Origin: Calditrichota bacterium
Lineage (GTDB): Bacteria; Calditrichota; Calditrichia; RBG-13-44-9; J042
Length of the DNA stretch: 64,000 nucleotides
Direction of reading: 5' to 3'
Assembly: GCA_013150955.1 (NCBI GenBank)
Contig: JAADJD010000059.1
Location: 59,881 to 123,880 of the forward strand
Shown here: positions 22,966-36,851 of the stretch, in pieces
How the letters are laid out: each line of letters starts with the position of its first letter
How positions within the stretch are numbered: the stretch's first letter is position 1
The notes under the pieces: generated by a model
The model's database searches: none
Told to the model about the DNA's origin: nothing
What the model saw: the letters and a program-made list of their open reading frames with translations, nothing else
Translations under genes and position numbers: made by a program

Positions 22966-23081
22966 AACCGGATTATGCATTAGACCACGAATTGTACGAA
23001 TTAACACAATTAAAAATAATCAAATACATTGGATCAGATCTGGATGAAAATTCGTTTCGAGGTTTAATGCATTATTTGGGA
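22966..23081. repeat. Dispersed palindromic element, short copy
   Basis: A shortened copy of the intergenic element seen at nine loci in this window. It begins GGATTATGCATTAGACCACGAATT and ends GGTTTAATGCATTATTTGGG, so its ends are imperfect inverted repeats. It abuts the left edge of the hairpin array. Confidence 0.7.
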
Positions 23082-23083
23082 TT

Positions 23084-26000
23084 ATTTTGCCCTTTCAGGG
23101 CGGAGGGGATTTGTGGTTTTGGGACGTTCCCATTACCAGGGGCGTTGCCCCTGGCTATCCTATCTTGCCCCTTCGGGGCGGGGTGGATTTATGCTCTGGA
23201 GGGTCTCCCTATTGCCTGGAACGTTCCCCCGGGTTACCCAATTTTTGCCCCGTTGGGGCGCATTTGCCCGAAGGGCAAAAATAGGGCAGCCCCGTGCAGG
23301 GCGCGGGGGACACGTGGTGCAGCCCGATAATTCATCTGCTGCCTGAAGGGCAGCGATAGAATTGGCCCGTTTCCGGGGCATGGGTAATGTTTGTTGGGGC
23401 TTCCCAATCACCGGGCAATGGTTATTTTGCCCTTTCATGGCGAAGGGGATTTGTGGTTTTGGGACGTTCCCACTACCAGGGGCGTTGCCCCTGGCTATCC
23501 TATTCTGCCCCTTCGGGGCGAGATGAAACGGGTGGTTCTTTCTGTTTTCCGTTGAAAATTAATTCGTATGGTTTTCCTGAATCCCGGGGGCCGGTATTTT
23601 GCTCTTTCGGGGCGCATTTGGATTTATGCTCTGGAGGGTCTCCCTATTGCCTGGAACATTCCACCGGGTTACCCAATTTTTGCTCCGTTGGGGCGCATTT
23701 GCCCGAAGGGCAAACAGATGGTAGCCCCGTGCAGGGCGCGGGGGCACGTGATATCCACCGATCCATCCGCTGCCTGAAGGGCAGCGATAGATTTTGCCAA
23801 TTTCCGGGGCATGGGTATTGTTTGTTGGGGGTTCCCAATCACCGGGCGATGGTTATTTTGCCCTTTCAGGGCGGAGGGTATGGATTGGGTCGGCTCCACT
23901 ACCAGGGGCGTTGCCCCTGGCTATCCCGTTTTGCTCCTTCGGGGCGGGATGAAATGGGTGGTTTTTTCTGTTTTTCCTGGAAAATTCACATGGTTTTCCT
24001 GAATCCCGGTGGCCAATATTCTGCCCCTTCGGGGCGCGTTTGGATTTATGCTTTGGAAGGTCTCCCCATTGCCAGAAACATTCCCCTGGGTTACCTAATT
24101 TTTGCCCCGTTGGGGTGCATTTGCCCGAAGGGCAAAAATAGGGCAGCCCCGTGCAGGGCACGCGGGCACATGATACCCACCGATAATCCATCTGCTGCCT
24201 GAAAGGCAGCGATAGAATTGGCCCGTTTCCGGGGCATTGGTAATGTTTGTTGGGGGGGGCAATCACGGGGCGATTGCTATTTTGCCCTTTCAGGGCGGAG
24301 GGGATTTGTGGTTTTGGGACGTTCCCACTACCAGGGGCGTTGCCCCTGGCTAACCTATTCTGCCCCTTCGGGGCGCGTTTGGATTTATGGTTTGGAGGGT
24401 CTCCCTATTGCCAGAAACATTCCCCTGGGTTACCTAATTTTTGCCCCGTTGGGGTGCATTTGCCCTAAGGGCAAAAATAGGGCAGCCCCGTGCAGGGCGC
24501 GGGGGGCACGCGATACCCACCGATTCATCAGCTGCCTGTAGGGCAGCGATAAATTTTGCCAATTTCCGGGGCATGGGCGTTGTTGGTTGTGGGTTTCCCA
24601 ATCACCGGGCGAGTGCTATTTTGCCCTTTCAGGGCGGAAGAAATTTGTGGTTGGGGGCGGCTCCGCTACCAGGGGCGTTGCCCCTGGCTACCCTGTTTTG
24701 CCCCTTCGGGGCGCGTTTGGATTTATGCTTTGGAAGGTCTCCCCATTGCCAGAAACATTCCCACAGGTTACCCATTTTTGCCCCGTTGGGGCGCATTTGC
24801 CCGAAGGGCAAACAGATGGTAGCCCCGTGCAGGGCGCGGGGGACACGTGGTGCACCCCGATGATCCATCTGCTGCCTGAAAGGCAGCGATAGAATTGAAC
24901 AATTTCCGGAGCGATTGCTATTTTGCCCTTTCAGGGCGGAAGAAATTTGTGGTTGGGGGCGTCTCCACTACCAGGGGCGTTGCCCCTGGCTATCCTATTC
25001 TGCCCCTTCGGGGCGAGATGAAACGGGTGGTTCTTTCTGTTTTCCGTTGAAAATTTCCGTTGAAAATTCGTATGGTTTTCCTGAATCCCGGGGGCCGGTA
25101 TTCTGCCCCTTCGGGGTGGGATGAATTTATGCTCTGGAGGGTCTCCCTATTGCCAGGAACGTTCCCCCGGGTTACCCAGTTTTTGCCCCGTTGGGGTGCA
25201 TTTGCCCGAAGGGCAAAAATAGGGCAGCCCCGTGCAGGGCACGGGGGGCACGTGATACCCACCGATAATCCATCTACTGCCTGAAAGGCAGCGATAGAAT
25301 TGGCCTGTTTCCGGGGCATGGGAATTGTTGGCCGAAATTACCAATCACCCGGCGATTGCTATTTTGCCCTTTCAGGGCAAAGGGGATTTGTGGTTTTGTG
25401 ACGTTCCCATTACCAGGGGCGTTGCCCCTGGCTATCCTATCTTGCCCCTTCGGGGCGCATTTGGATTTATGGTATGGAGGGTCTCCCTATTGCCAAAAAC
25501 ATTCCCCCGGGTTACCCAGTTTTTGCCCCGTTGGAGTGCATTTGCCCGAAGGGCAAACAGATGATAGCCCCGCGCAGGGCGCGGGGGTACGTGATACCCA
25601 CCGATAATCCATCTGCTGCCTGAAGGGCAGCGATAGAATTGGCCCATTTCTGGAGAGGTTGCTATTTTGCCCTTTCAGGGCGGAGGGGGTGGATTGGGTT
25701 GGCTCCATTACCAGGGGCGTTGCCCCTGGCTATCCTATCTTGCCCCTTCGGGGCGAGATGAAACGGGTGGTTCTTTCTGTTTTCAGTTGAAAATTCGTAT
25801 GGTTTTCCTGAATCCCGGTGGCCGGTATCTTGCCCCTTCGGGGCGCGTTTGGATTTATGCTCTGGAGGGTCTCCCTATTGCCAGAAACATTCCACCGGGT
25901 TACCCAATTTTTGCTCCGTTGGGGCGCATTTGCCCGAAGGGCAAACAGATGATAGCCCCGTGCAGGGCGCGGGGGCACGTGATACCCACCGATCCATCCG

Positions 26001-26262
26001 CTGCCTGAAGGGCAGCGATAGAATTGGCCCGTTTCCGGGGCATGGGTATTGTTTGTTGGGGGTTCCCAATCACCGGGCCATGGTTATTTTGCCTTTTCAG
26101 GGCGGAGGGGATTTGTGATTTTGGGACGTTCCCATTACCAGGGGCGTTGTCCCTGGCTATCCCGTTTTGCCCCTTCGGGGCGGGATGGATTTATGCTCTG
26201 GAGGGTCTCCTGGGTCTCCGGGTCACCCGATTTTGCCCTCTTGGGGCACCCCATCATCTGGT
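23084..26262. repeat. Array of nine tandem hairpin-rich repeat units
   Basis: The hairpin CCAGGGGCGTTGCCCCTGG recurs at 23136, 23476, 23902, 24331, 24669, 24971, 25413, 25711 and 26138, giving unit lengths of 340, 426, 429, 338, 302, 442, 298 and 427 bases plus a truncated last unit. Each full unit carries about seven short hairpins in fixed order: GCCCT-TTC-AGGGC; the one above; GCCCCTTCGGGGC with a UUCG-type loop; GCCCCGTTGGGGC; TTTGCCCGAAGGGCAAA; a GCCCCGTGC...GCGCGGGG stem; and CTGCCTGAAGGGCAG. Open frames through the array are artefacts of the repeat. No transposase, no CRISPR-like short spacer pattern and no conserved protein are visible. Confidence 0.9.
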
Positions 26263-30381: not shown

Positions 30382-31302
30382 ATGATGAGATACCGGATTA
30401 CAGGCATACAGAAGTTGCAGAACCAGTTATTTACGGATATTTCGGTAGGTCTGGAAAATGGCGGACTGGCGTTGCTGGCCCGAAAATATGGAGCCATCTG
30501 CGACCGCTATTTGCGGATGAGTCGCACGGTGGCCTGGCACGAACTTACCGTGGCTTCCCGGGCGGCTCTGTTGAATATCGAGGGATGGTTGCACTGGCTT
30601 CAGGGGAAGGATCATCGCTTTGTGCAGTTGCAGAGAATCTTTGAGTCCCAGCGGGTGGTGTTATCACCGCGCTTCCGGAAGTTGCCCATTCTGCTGAAGA
30701 TTCGGCCGGGGGAAAAATTGTACCACTCCATTAAACTGGTGGGGCATTTCATCCTGGTGGAAATTTCCCTCCTGACCTTTGAGTGGAACGTTCAGTATTT
30801 CGAAGCGCTGGCACGGTTGCTGTTTCAAAAGCTTTCCCGACGAAAAATTCCCCGGGAAATCCTGCATCAATTTTATGCCCTGCAGGAAGAAGAACTAAGC
30901 CGTTCCCCCCGAATGGCGGCCACGGTCGGTTCCGATCCCCGTCTGGAACGACTGTTTGATGAGTTGAATCACGCCTATTTTAACGGAAAATTACCAAAAC
31001 CCCGAATAAAGTGGAGTGCCCGGGTGGGAAGACGCCAGCTGGGGTATTACGATCAGGTAAAACACGAAATCGGTATTAATCCCCTGCTAAGGCATCCGGA
31101 AGTGCCCTGGTATGTGCTGGAGAATGTGGTCTACCACGAAATGCTCCATATCTATTATCCCCCGTACATTAAAAATGGTCGGCGGGTACAACACGACCGC
31201 AAGTTTCGAGCACTGGAACGCCAGTATGTCCATTTCGAAAAGGCCCGACGCTGGATTAAGCATCATTTTCCACAACACCTGAAGCGAGGCTGGATTGATT
31301 AA
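30382..31302 (+). CDS. SprT-like zinc metalloprotein
   Basis: A protein of 306 residues. The C-terminal third matches SprT-like domains: FDELNHAYFNGKLPKPRIKWS, then H252-E-M-L-H256 with a following basic segment KFRALERQYVHFEKARRWI. In SprT/Spartan proteins this site holds zinc and can act as a protease. The usual C-terminal zinc ribbon is not seen. The first 190 residues are basic and helical, of unknown role. The start is uncertain: ATG 30382 is chosen because the in-frame GTG at 30313 has no ribosome site and lies near the repeat; ATG 30385 is equally possible. Confidence 0.72.
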   Translation: MMRYRITGIQKLQNQLFTDISVGLENGGLALLARKYGAICDRYLRMSRTVAWHELTVASRAALLNIEGWLHWLQGKDHRFVQLQRIFESQRVVLSPRFRKLPILLKIRPGEKLYHSIKLVGHFILVEISLLTFEWNVQYFEALARLLFQKLSRRKIPREILHQFYALQEEELSRSPRMAATVGSDPRLERLFDELNHAYFNGKLPKPRIKWSARVGRRQLGYYDQVKHEIGINPLLRHPEVPWYVLENVVYHEMLHIYYPPYIKNGRRVQHDRKFRALERQYVHFEKARRWIKHHFPQHLKRGWID

Positions 31303-33287: not shown

Positions 33288-33316
33288 TTGACTCAATTTT
33301 GGGCAGGTGTTAAATT
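33288..33316 (+). promoter_or_regulatory. Predicted promoter
   Basis: TTGACT at 33288-33293 and TAAATT at 33311-33316 with a 17-base spacer. The start would fall about 17 bases before the TTG codon at 33340, leaving a very short leader that still contains GGAGG. Confidence 0.6.
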
Positions 33317-33339
33317 CACTGAAAATATGGAGGATGGTT

Positions 33340-34695
33340 TTGTCTGAGCGGTTCCAGAAAACGTTTATCTCGGTTCGGGAGTTTATTGAGAGCTGGGATA
33401 AAGAAATTTATGAGCTGAACAATCTCGACTTTTTTATATATTTATTGATTAACCACGTTGGCAATCGTCTGGATCGTCAATTTTTTACCCCCGATCGACA
33501 GAATTCCCCCCTTTTTCTCGATTTTGAAAATCTGGGCACGCTATGTTTTAATCTGGGCGATAGTCTGGAATATTTTTTACAGGACAATTGCTTCGGTAGC
33601 TGCTCCCTGAATTGTCCACTGGATATGGAGAATCGGGTTCAACCGGAGCAGTACGAGGGAAATGACTGGATGCGCCGACGCATCGATCTGTTACAGTCCT
33701 TTCTCAATGGCAACCTGGTTAAGGAGCAGTGCCTGCGGGTGGATATCATGAATCACGTGATTCTGGAAACGCTGATGCAGTTTTATTCCGAAGAGCTGGG
33801 AGTGGATTTCGGGGAAGATGATGTGGAGATGGTGGAACTGGCGGAGTTTATCGAAAACGTGATGATCGATTTTATCCGTCTGGAAGGCCAGGGATTGCTG
33901 CAACGTCCGTTTGATTCCGCGATGGATTACTTCGAAGAACTGCTGGACATTGACGAGGAGTACACGGGCGAAGATGAGTGGCAGAACGAAGGTGAGAGCT
34001 GGACGGCTTCACCGGCCGAAGATTCCTGGCAGCAGTCGTTTGAAGAAATTTCCCATACCCTGGAGAAATTCCTGGAAGATTATCAGCTCCAGGCTCCCGA
34101 TTCCCTGGGATGGATGAGCCATGACATTCACCTGTTTCAAAAATATTTAATGGAAATCGGTGGGGTTTATGATATTTACGACCTCAAAGATGAGCACATT
34201 CTGGAATTTCTGGCCTTCTGGTTGGTTAAAGAATTTGTGATGGAGGATGAGACGCAGGTTCAGCATGTGTTCCGCACCATGGCGCGGTTTGTGACCTGGG
34301 TATACAACAATTATGGATTGGACTTTCGTCGGCCTTTCCTGGAGTATTACGAACAGGTAAAACGAGAAGTGCCGCGGGTGATTCGGGCGCTTAACACCTA
34401 CCTGAATGAATACAACATCTTTGAGGTCATGGTGAATCGGGACAATCCCGAAGTTGAGCAAATCTCCGGATTCTTTGAAATCAAGCAGTTGCACAGCCGG
34501 ATTCACAAGTTTATGGATCTGGCGGATGTTCATTTCTTTGCTGAACTGAAGCATGTGCACCTGGATTCATCGGCATTTTTGAACTTGCGGCCGGGCGACA
34601 TTTTGCATGCCACCCTGATGAAACGCGATGGCAACTGGGTGGTGCTGGAAATTCACTATATTTATCCGAATATTGCCCGCACGTTTATACATTAA
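33340..34695 (+). CDS. Acidic cytoplasmic protein of unknown function
   Basis: A 451-residue protein I do not recognise. It has no signal peptide or membrane helix, is rich in Glu, Asp and aromatic residues, and appears mostly helical. A Cys cluster DNCFGSCSLNCPLD lies near residue 95 (C-x3-C-x3-C) and could bind metal. A very acidic stretch near residue 220 (DIDEEYTGEDEW) separates two halves. The end (NLRPGDILHATLMKRDGNWVVLEIHYIYP) looks like a small beta domain. TTG 33340 is the likely start because GGAGG lies 6 bases upstream; the ATG at 33334 sits directly on that site. Its stop is 10 bases before the promoter of the candidate RNA at 34740. Confidence 0.7.
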   Translation: MSERFQKTFISVREFIESWDKEIYELNNLDFFIYLLINHVGNRLDRQFFTPDRQNSPLFLDFENLGTLCFNLGDSLEYFLQDNCFGSCSLNCPLDMENRVQPEQYEGNDWMRRRIDLLQSFLNGNLVKEQCLRVDIMNHVILETLMQFYSEELGVDFGEDDVEMVELAEFIENVMIDFIRLEGQGLLQRPFDSAMDYFEELLDIDEEYTGEDEWQNEGESWTASPAEDSWQQSFEEISHTLEKFLEDYQLQAPDSLGWMSHDIHLFQKYLMEIGGVYDIYDLKDEHILEFLAFWLVKEFVMEDETQVQHVFRTMARFVTWVYNNYGLDFRRPFLEYYEQVKREVPRVIRALNTYLNEYNIFEVMVNRDNPEVEQISGFFEIKQLHSRIHKFMDLADVHFFAELKHVHLDSSAFLNLRPGDILHATLMKRDGNWVVLEIHYIYPNIARTFIH

Positions 34696-34704
34696 ATTTT
34701 TCTC

Positions 34705-34733
34705 TTGACAGATTGGAAATTTTCAAATATATT
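34705..34733 (+). promoter_or_regulatory. Strong predicted promoter of a small RNA
   Basis: Consensus TTGACA at 34705-34710, a 17-base A+T-rich spacer, and TATATT at 34728-34733. The predicted start lies at about 34740, the first base of the closing stem of the RNA below. Confidence 0.7.
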
Positions 34734-34739
34734 TAAAGC

Positions 34740-34848
34740 GGCAATGGGGCTCTCCCCTCAAAGAAAACCCTCCCTCCCTTGAAATAATTTGAGATTTGGC
34801 CCCATTGCCAGTAAGAGGGACATCCAGACGGATGTCCCTCTTCTTTTT
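34740..34848 (+). ncRNA. Candidate small RNA with C-rich loop
   Basis: The predicted transcript, about 109 bases, starts with GGCAATGGGGC (34740-34750), which pairs perfectly with GCCCCATTGCC (34799-34809). Inside, CTCAAA (34757-34762) pairs with TTTGAG (34788-34793), leaving a loop that contains CCCTCCCTCCC (34768-34778), complementary to Shine-Dalgarno sequences. A 13-bp terminator hairpin with a T run ends the transcript. Promoter, start, fold and terminator are all in register, and no open frame fits. It lacks the tetraloop motif of SRP RNA and the large central bubble of 6S RNA. C-rich unpaired loops are typical of bacterial RNAs that block ribosome sites; that role is inference. Confidence 0.7.
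34813..34848 (+). terminator. Intrinsic terminator of the small RNA
   Basis: AAGAGGGACATCC and GGATGTCCCTCTT form a perfect 13-bp stem with an AGAC loop, running into TTCTTTTT. Confidence 0.9.
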
Positions 34849-35270: not shown

Positions 35271-36851
35271 ATGAACAACCGTTCGCTTCGTTCAGAGAAT
35301 GTTTCCTTGGTCTGCCTGCTTATCTGGGCCGGGATTATCCTGCTTTTCCCCGGCAGGGAACTGGATGCTCAGGAAAATGCATGGGTGGACACCACCGAAG
35401 TCCAGCAGGTGGCCGAAAGGAAGTTTTTAAATCTGGAGCGAAATCAGACCATTCACCGGTTTCGAGGGGATCATGTGGTTCAGAAGGATGAGGTGATCAA
35501 CGGGCATGTGGTGATCGTGAAAGGTAATCTGGATGTGTATGGCACGATCAACGGTGATGTGCTGGTCATCGGTGGGGACGTTCGGGTACGAAATGACGGT
35601 TGGGTGAACGGGGATATTACCAGTCTTGGTGGGAAAGTGGTGGTGGAGCAGGATGGCCATGTGCTGGGGAACATGCTGGAAACCCACGCCAGCAATCTGA
35701 TGTTTACCCATGTATCCTCACACCGTTCTCGCTGGCGGGCTTTGTGGGAGGAGCCGGGTGACTGGCATACGGATACCCACGCCGATGCGGAAAAACTGGT
35801 ATTTCGTTACAATCGCGTGGAAGGCGTTTTTCTGGGAATCAACATGCGTCAGCCCTGGAGACGCACCCGTTACTTTTCCCTTTACGGTTTTGGTGGCTAC
35901 GGGTTTAAAAATAAGGCCTGGCGCTACGAACTGGGCATCCGGCGTTGGTTTATCGATCCGTACGACTATCGCCTGGAAATTGGGTTTGACATTCATGATC
36001 TGACGGATACCAAGGATTTATGGCGGACGTCTTACCTGGAGAATTCACTGGCCGCATTTTTATTCCGGGAAGATTATCATGATTATTTCCGGCGTTACGG
36101 TTACCGGGTTTATGTGGCTCAAAACCTGGGATCGCGGGCATTCCTGAAACTGGAATATCGGGACGATGATTACGAAAGCATGAGCAACGTGACCAACTGG
36201 TCGCTGTTTGGGGGGAAGAAGGTCTTTCGGGAAAATCCGCCACTGGGCATTTATGAAGGAAAGTACCAGACCCTGATTGCCCGATTCAACTGGGACAGGC
36301 GAAAGGGATACCATTACCACCAGCGGGGCTGGTGGCTTAACCTGGAAGCGGAAATCGCTCCGGAATCCTGGAAAAATACCACCATTTTTGAACGATACCT
36401 GCTGGAGCTGCGGACTTACATTCGGTTAACGCCGGACGAGAATTTGAATGCCCGTGTTCTGGTGGGGGCATCGCAGGGCGATCTTCCCATTCAGAAAAAT
36501 TTTGAATTGGGTGGCATTGGAACGCTGCGGGGTTTTCCCTACAAAGCATTTGTGGGAAATCAGATGATCCTGGGGAACGTGGAGTATGTGGTTTCCAACG
36601 ATTTGCTGGGATTTCCCTTTCCCGATGGTTGGAATTTAATTTTGTTTGGCGATGTGGGAGCGGTCTGGAGAAGCAACCCCGATCAGAAATTGGATGAAAT
36701 CTGGAAGAATCTGCATCGGGATCGGTTAAAAAGTAATATTGGATTTGCAATTGCCAGCCGGGATGGCGATTTTCGGGTAAATATCGCGCGGCCAATTCGA
36801 TCCAGTCGCCAGGATATTATAGTAACGGTTCGAATTCAGCAGCCGTTTTAA
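35271..36851 (+). CDS. Polymer-forming (bactofilin-like) domain fused to an Omp85-type barrel
   Basis: A 526-residue exported protein. A signal peptide (about residues 1-32) is followed by a short right-handed beta-helix segment at residues 65-125 with six-residue steps (GNLDVYGTINGDVLVIGGDVRVRNDGWVNGDI), as in bactofilin/polymer-forming domains. From about residue 170 to the end the sequence alternates as barrel strands and contains LGGIGTLRGFPYKAF, the Omp85 barrel turn, with a terminal QQPF. An ATG follows CTGGAG. The combination suggests a barrel carrying a periplasmic beta-helix. Ten bases separate it from the next gene, so the three genes to 39439 form an operon. Confidence 0.72.
   Translation: MNNRSLRSENVSLVCLLIWAGIILLFPGRELDAQENAWVDTTEVQQVAERKFLNLERNQTIHRFRGDHVVQKDEVINGHVVIVKGNLDVYGTINGDVLVIGGDVRVRNDGWVNGDITSLGGKVVVEQDGHVLGNMLETHASNLMFTHVSSHRSRWRALWEEPGDWHTDTHADAEKLVFRYNRVEGVFLGINMRQPWRRTRYFSLYGFGGYGFKNKAWRYELGIRRWFIDPYDYRLEIGFDIHDLTDTKDLWRTSYLENSLAAFLFREDYHDYFRRYGYRVYVAQNLGSRAFLKLEYRDDDYESMSNVTNWSLFGGKKVFRENPPLGIYEGKYQTLIARFNWDRRKGYHYHQRGWWLNLEAEIAPESWKNTTIFERYLLELRTYIRLTPDENLNARVLVGASQGDLPIQKNFELGGIGTLRGFPYKAFVGNQMILGNVEYVVSNDLLGFPFPDGWNLILFGDVGAVWRSNPDQKLDEIWKNLHRDRLKSNIGFAIASRDGDFRVNIARPIRSSRQDIIVTVRIQQPF

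Follow-up and report, generated by a model that had tools for sequence, protein, structure and literature searches.

A conserved small RNA gene with an anti-Shine-Dalgarno-type loop in one order of the Calditrichota

The DNA analysed here (the window) is a stretch of 64,000 nucleotides from a 4.07-Mb Calditrichota genome, and it carries at positions 34739–34848 of the plus strand what is almost certainly a real, conserved and as yet uncatalogued small RNA gene, designated sRNA1, with a predicted transcript of about 110 nt. From folding, homologues and covariation it represents a new family within a functional kind that is already known, and it is likely to be a trans-acting anti-Shine-Dalgarno (anti-SD) small RNA that acts by base pairing. 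A compact small RNA with an anti-SD-type loop had been proposed for this place in a first-pass annotation of the DNA, and the proposal is strongly supported by conservation, covariation, promoter, terminator and a sibling small RNA (sRNA2). For comparison a sample of 40 genomes from this little-studied phylum was used, of which 16, belonging to three families, form the order of the window; it should be noted that several of these genomes are fragmented drafts.

sRNA1 is preceded by a sigma-70-type promoter (34705–34733, plus strand) that agrees with the consensus in 11 of 12 positions, TTGACA at 34705–34710 (−35) and TATATT at 34728–34733 (−10) being separated by a spacer of 17 nt. The expected start is at about 34739–34740, where the closing stem begins. 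Its 5′ arm (34740–34751) and 3′ arm (34798–34809), both on the plus strand, consist of GGCAAUGGGGC (34740–34750) paired with GCCCCAUUGCC (34799–34809) in 11 Watson-Crick pairs, to which U34751·G34798 is added as a twelfth. The unit ends with an intrinsic terminator (34813–34848, plus strand), a 13-bp stem at 34813–34842 followed by CTTTTT. Promoter, start at an 11-bp closing stem and 13-bp terminator had all been read from the window before, and each was found in its place. Folding of the window unit has a z of −5.4, and 0 of 200 shuffles were as good. On the level of sequence, sRNA1 would be a free-standing transcription unit with its own promoter and its own terminator.

A BLASTN search against 60 relatives yielded five sRNA1 homologues besides the query, and with these six sequences as input a covariance model detected sRNA1 in 12 of 40 phylum genomes, all of them within the order of the window (12/16) and distributed over its three families. 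The twelve sequences were then used for a refined model, under which their E values range from 3e-10 to 4e-22, which must be read with the proviso that the twelve are the model's own input and match it by construction. Weak matches of the sRNA1 model (R2) outside the order were rejected, since they either resemble coding sequence or do not show the architecture. When 84,980 named species were scanned for the exact pattern, only 10 matches were obtained, all attributable to the Calditrichota group, and in viral contigs neither motif pattern was matched. The twelve homologues all fold well (z between −5.6 and −9.8), and in the closing helix (12 pairs in 12 homologues) 100% of the cells are paired, versus 25–53% in slid controls. 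The covariation search in relatives that had been recommended as a check shows changes on both sides in 8 of the 12 pairs, as compared with 2.8 in shuffles, a value reached by 0 of 500. A hairpin with U run is present in 12/12 homologues, its sequence drifting, and TTGAYW-17-TAYATT is found in 11/11 homologous loci with upstream sequence, ending 5–8 nt before the stem; ten of these promoters were located by scan and that of G013 (TTGATT-17-TACATT, its end 6 nt away from the stem) was identified by eye because the scan had taken another site.

The neighbourhood is conserved, too. The upstream gene (33307–34695, plus strand; its actual start perhaps lies further in, near 33340) encodes a protein of 462 amino acids for which no match in Pfam or NCBIfam was found, and with orthologues in 39 of 40 phylum genomes its product appears as an uncharacterised phylum-wide protein family. 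In 11/11 testable loci sRNA1 lies approximately 40–215 nt downstream of the orthologue on the same strand; in G003 the two are found on separate contigs, each at an edge, which is compatible with the same arrangement. Where sRNA1 was not found within the order, the syntenic place meets a contig end (G002) or a run of N (G005), or the upstream gene was recovered only as a short fragment (G007); from G010, where another gene directly follows the upstream gene, sRNA1 appears to be truly absent. At the loci inspected in the phylum's remaining families the upstream gene does occur, with no sRNA1-like RNA behind it. Within the order sRNA1 thus withstood the test named in the first-pass annotation, namely whether the RNA lacks conservation while its neighbours are conserved.

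Within the sRNA1 loop two CU-rich motifs, CUCUC.CC and CCUCCCUCC, are almost invariant, whereas the remainder drifts. Motif 2 (CCCUCCCUCCC, 34768–34778, plus strand) is the C-rich anti-SD loop that had been described from the window alone: its CCUCCCUCC is identical in 12/12 homologues and its unpaired probability in the ensemble is 0.70–1.00, so that sRNA1 has an accessible and conserved SD-complementary motif. Motif 1 (CUCUCCCC, 34750–34757, plus strand), which had been overlooked, emerged from the alignment of homologues as a second conserved CU-rich motif, with UCUC-CC invariant; it is mostly unpaired (probability 0.62–0.91), and the first two of its bases are at the same time part of the closing stem. 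Of the inner stem claimed previously, only the presence in the window and in the sister species stood (CUCAAA at 34757–34762 with UUUGAG at 34788–34793). It is not conserved across the homologues and has no covariation support, and its strength does not exceed that in shuffled loops, a low z having been obtained in G015 and G008 only. Another candidate was a local GGGG-CUCU-CCCC hairpin, which is possible in families f1 and f3; it was rejected as a conserved switch because it cannot form in family f2.

The complement of motif 2 (GGGAGGGAGG) has 13 sites in the window's own genome, one of which turned out to be a second small RNA gene, sRNA2 (L086/L092; G000:C41, approximately 31,000–31,100, outside the window). 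Its promoter, TTGACA-17-TATATT, is followed by a short hairpin, a AAACCUCCCUCCCAACUCCGC that stays unpaired, and a terminator, and it is conserved even better than sRNA1, being present in 14 rather than 12 of the order's 16 genomes and in 8/8 of those of good quality. The core of 21 nt, AACCUCCCUCCCAACUCCGCA, does not vary among the 14 sequences, and the flanking hairpins are variable and partly covarying, 7 of their 14 pairs having changed on both sides. The sequence AAACCUCCCUCC is common to sRNA1 and sRNA2 while the scaffolds differ: in sRNA2 it is placed between the 5′ hairpin and the terminator, in sRNA1 inside the closed stem. There are also looser paralogues (L030, L031, L032, L033) in which a stem encloses two CU-rich motifs. 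They are held by family f2 (G008, G012, G015) and, more weakly, by f3 (G011), and in the f2 copies L030–L032 the U run directly follows the closing stem, which doubles as terminator. In 250 genomes outside the phylum the sRNA2 model found nothing credible. Matches of this model outside the order (L122–L124) look like chance terminators beside C-rich sequence and were rejected. Two of them, L124 (G229:C76) and L123 (G180:C1), have C-rich sequence of the CCUCCCUCCCAAC or CUUCCUCCCAAU type directly 5′ of a terminator in bacteria other than Calditrichota; these are probably due to chance, or else possibly independent anti-SD 3′ ends.

Small RNAs of this functional kind are known from other phyla. 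Yfr1 of cyanobacteria consists of two stem-loops, the 3′ one being the terminator, that flank an ultraconserved ACUCCUCACAC left unpaired (PMC2190773), and it represses by pairing of the conserved motif at the ribosome-binding region (PMC6974561). Yfr10 carries the Yfr1 motif in a loop atop a stem and has overlapping but distinct targets, one motif thus occurring in two structural contexts (PMC6778093). The α-r14 or cuckoo RNAs of Alphaproteobacteria have three hairpins, each with an ultraconserved unpaired CCUCCUCCC anti-SD motif, on stems that vary (PMC10746234). sRNA2 has the shape of Yfr1, two hairpins (the 3′ one a terminator) around an unpaired CU-rich core; the core sequences (AACCUCCCUCCCAACUCCGCA versus ACUCCUCACAC) and the phyla, however, are different. 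sRNA1, with its motif inside the closing stem rather than between two stem-loops as in Yfr1 and sRNA2, has the apical-loop-on-stem shape of Yfr10. This is an analogy only, the motifs being different (CCUCCCUCC versus ACUCCUCACAC): the undecanucleotide of Yfr1 is absent from both sRNA1 and sRNA2, there is no sequence homology, and position and structure of Yfr10 are poorly conserved whereas stem, promoter and neighbourhood of sRNA1 are conserved. Like α-r14, sRNA1 leaves an invariant anti-SD motif unpaired on stems that vary in sequence, but it has one closing stem with two CU-rich motifs and a terminator instead of three CCUCCUCCC hairpins, and the motif spacing differs; there is no homology in sequence or structure. 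The likeness of the pair sRNA1/sRNA2 to Yfr10/Yfr1 is one of function and probably convergent. A brief search of the literature brought up no publication dealing with regulatory small RNAs in Calditrichota.

Base pairing to ribosome-binding sites is the best explanation because an accessible SD-complementary motif is common to two unrelated scaffolds. The closing stem would protect sRNA1 and present the CU-rich motif, which, like the tail of 16S rRNA, could pair in a set of mRNAs with the G-rich ribosome-binding sites (GGAGG/GGGAGG). Such pairing would block the start of translation and lower expression and mRNA stability. Going by their sequences, sRNA1 and sRNA2 probably switch mRNAs off by covering ribosome-binding sites; with one motif they may differ in accessibility, expression and targets, as do Yfr1 and Yfr10, and their action would probably do without Hfq. 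Hfq was undetected in 16/16 genomes of the order in a search that detected it in E. coli, B. subtilis and others. A further step, which we put forward tentatively and consider rather doubtful, is that the order runs a dedicated Hfq-independent anti-SD family (sRNA1, sRNA2 and paralogues) that mimics the 16S rRNA tail, tunes initiation broadly and evolved independently of, and convergently with, Yfr1/Yfr10. If true, the Yfr1/Yfr10 arrangement would have evolved a second time, independently, in a pair of unrelated scaffolds with a common anti-SD motif, and this would contribute to an explanation of base-pairing regulation in bacteria without detectable Hfq. The analysis also yields two highly conserved RNAs and covariance models fit for deposit.

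The statement that most genes of the window use GGAGG was exaggerated: it precedes approximately 11 of 46 crude gene calls, and GGAG or better approximately 20 of 46. Duplexes of the loop are stronger at start sites of the window than in gene interiors (mean −8.1 versus −5.6 kcal/mol), the reversed-loop control of this test being uninformative because the motif is nearly palindromic. Close to ATG, GGGAGGUUU has 101 sites, as compared with 38 for the reversed-pattern control. Alone, neither the duplex bias nor this excess is specific, since ordinary SD sequences would give both. The extended complements GGAGGGAGG or GGGAGGUUU near ATG revealed no orthologue recurring between genomes of the order; at G000:C6:95960, for instance, GGAGGGAGG is situated 8 nt 5′ of an ATG. 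Target prediction, as the first-pass annotation had suggested it, gave enrichment of the patterns over control and no recurrent orthologue.

The invariant C-rich loops of sRNA1 could equally be protein-binding sites. They might bind, for example, a KH-type poly-C binder, and sRNA1 would then be a protein-binding or sponge RNA that titrates such a protein or is carried by it. The presence of two CU-rich motifs within one RNA, likewise in the sibling and the paralogues, would fit this, as would the lack of a detectable Hfq in the order and of a recurrent mRNA target. We nevertheless hold it to be improbable: the motif is an anti-SD sequence, the exact complement of SD elements, the shared extension AAACCUCCCUCC is longer than typical single-strand protein sites, and precedent favours base pairing.

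Base pairing might also be directed at a partner small RNA or a single dominant target instead of many mRNAs. Yfr2, which pairs with Yfr1, is a precedent (PMC6778093), and that sRNA1 and sRNA2 both conserve a long exact motif would be in accordance with it. However, most of the 13 GGGAGGGAGG sites in the own genome are within long open frames, and at this length no conserved intergenic G-rich partner was seen, shorter complements being possible; we therefore regard a single partner as unlikely. It should be added that, the two small RNA loci set aside, none of these sites looks like a convincing SD.

The position of sRNA1 directly behind the gene 33307–34695 in every testable locus could suggest a 3′UTR element of this gene, or else a leader, riboswitch or attenuator, or a tiny ORF, the window having an ATG...TGA across the loop that could be read as 12 codons. 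All this is very unlikely. Against a leader or 3′UTR element stand the conserved promoter and terminator of sRNA1 itself, and the next credible gene on the 3′ side begins only at 35271, more than 400 nt away. The tiny ORF was rejected in that neither its frame nor its start is conserved: the loop length varies out of frame, and in family f2 covarying changes in the stem have removed the ATG.

A housekeeping RNA can practically be dismissed, for although the long closing stem and big loop are reminiscent of 6S RNA, the sRNA1 loop does not fit in sequence or size, no Rfam match is found at the locus and a distinct 6S RNA exists in the same genome at G000:C6:74711-74892, which refutes this identity. 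With Rfam 15 at gathering score there were 0 matches in the window, SRP RNA and tmRNA included; at a permissive threshold (E up to 10) no credible match was found at the sRNA1 locus, nor was there one with the 6S covariance model RF00013, and no Rfam family covers sRNA1 or sRNA2. 6S RNA itself was found in 15 of the 16 genomes of the order. The view that sRNA1 is none of SRP RNA, 6S RNA and tmRNA, already taken in the first reading of the window, is upheld by these results.

Elsewhere in the window, at 22990–26210, there is an array of about nine imperfect direct repeats of 340–435 bp each with a 25-nt core TGGATTTATGCTCTGGAGGGTCTCC, and within it, near 23.4–25.7 kb, GCCCTTTCAGGGC-like palindromes are found.
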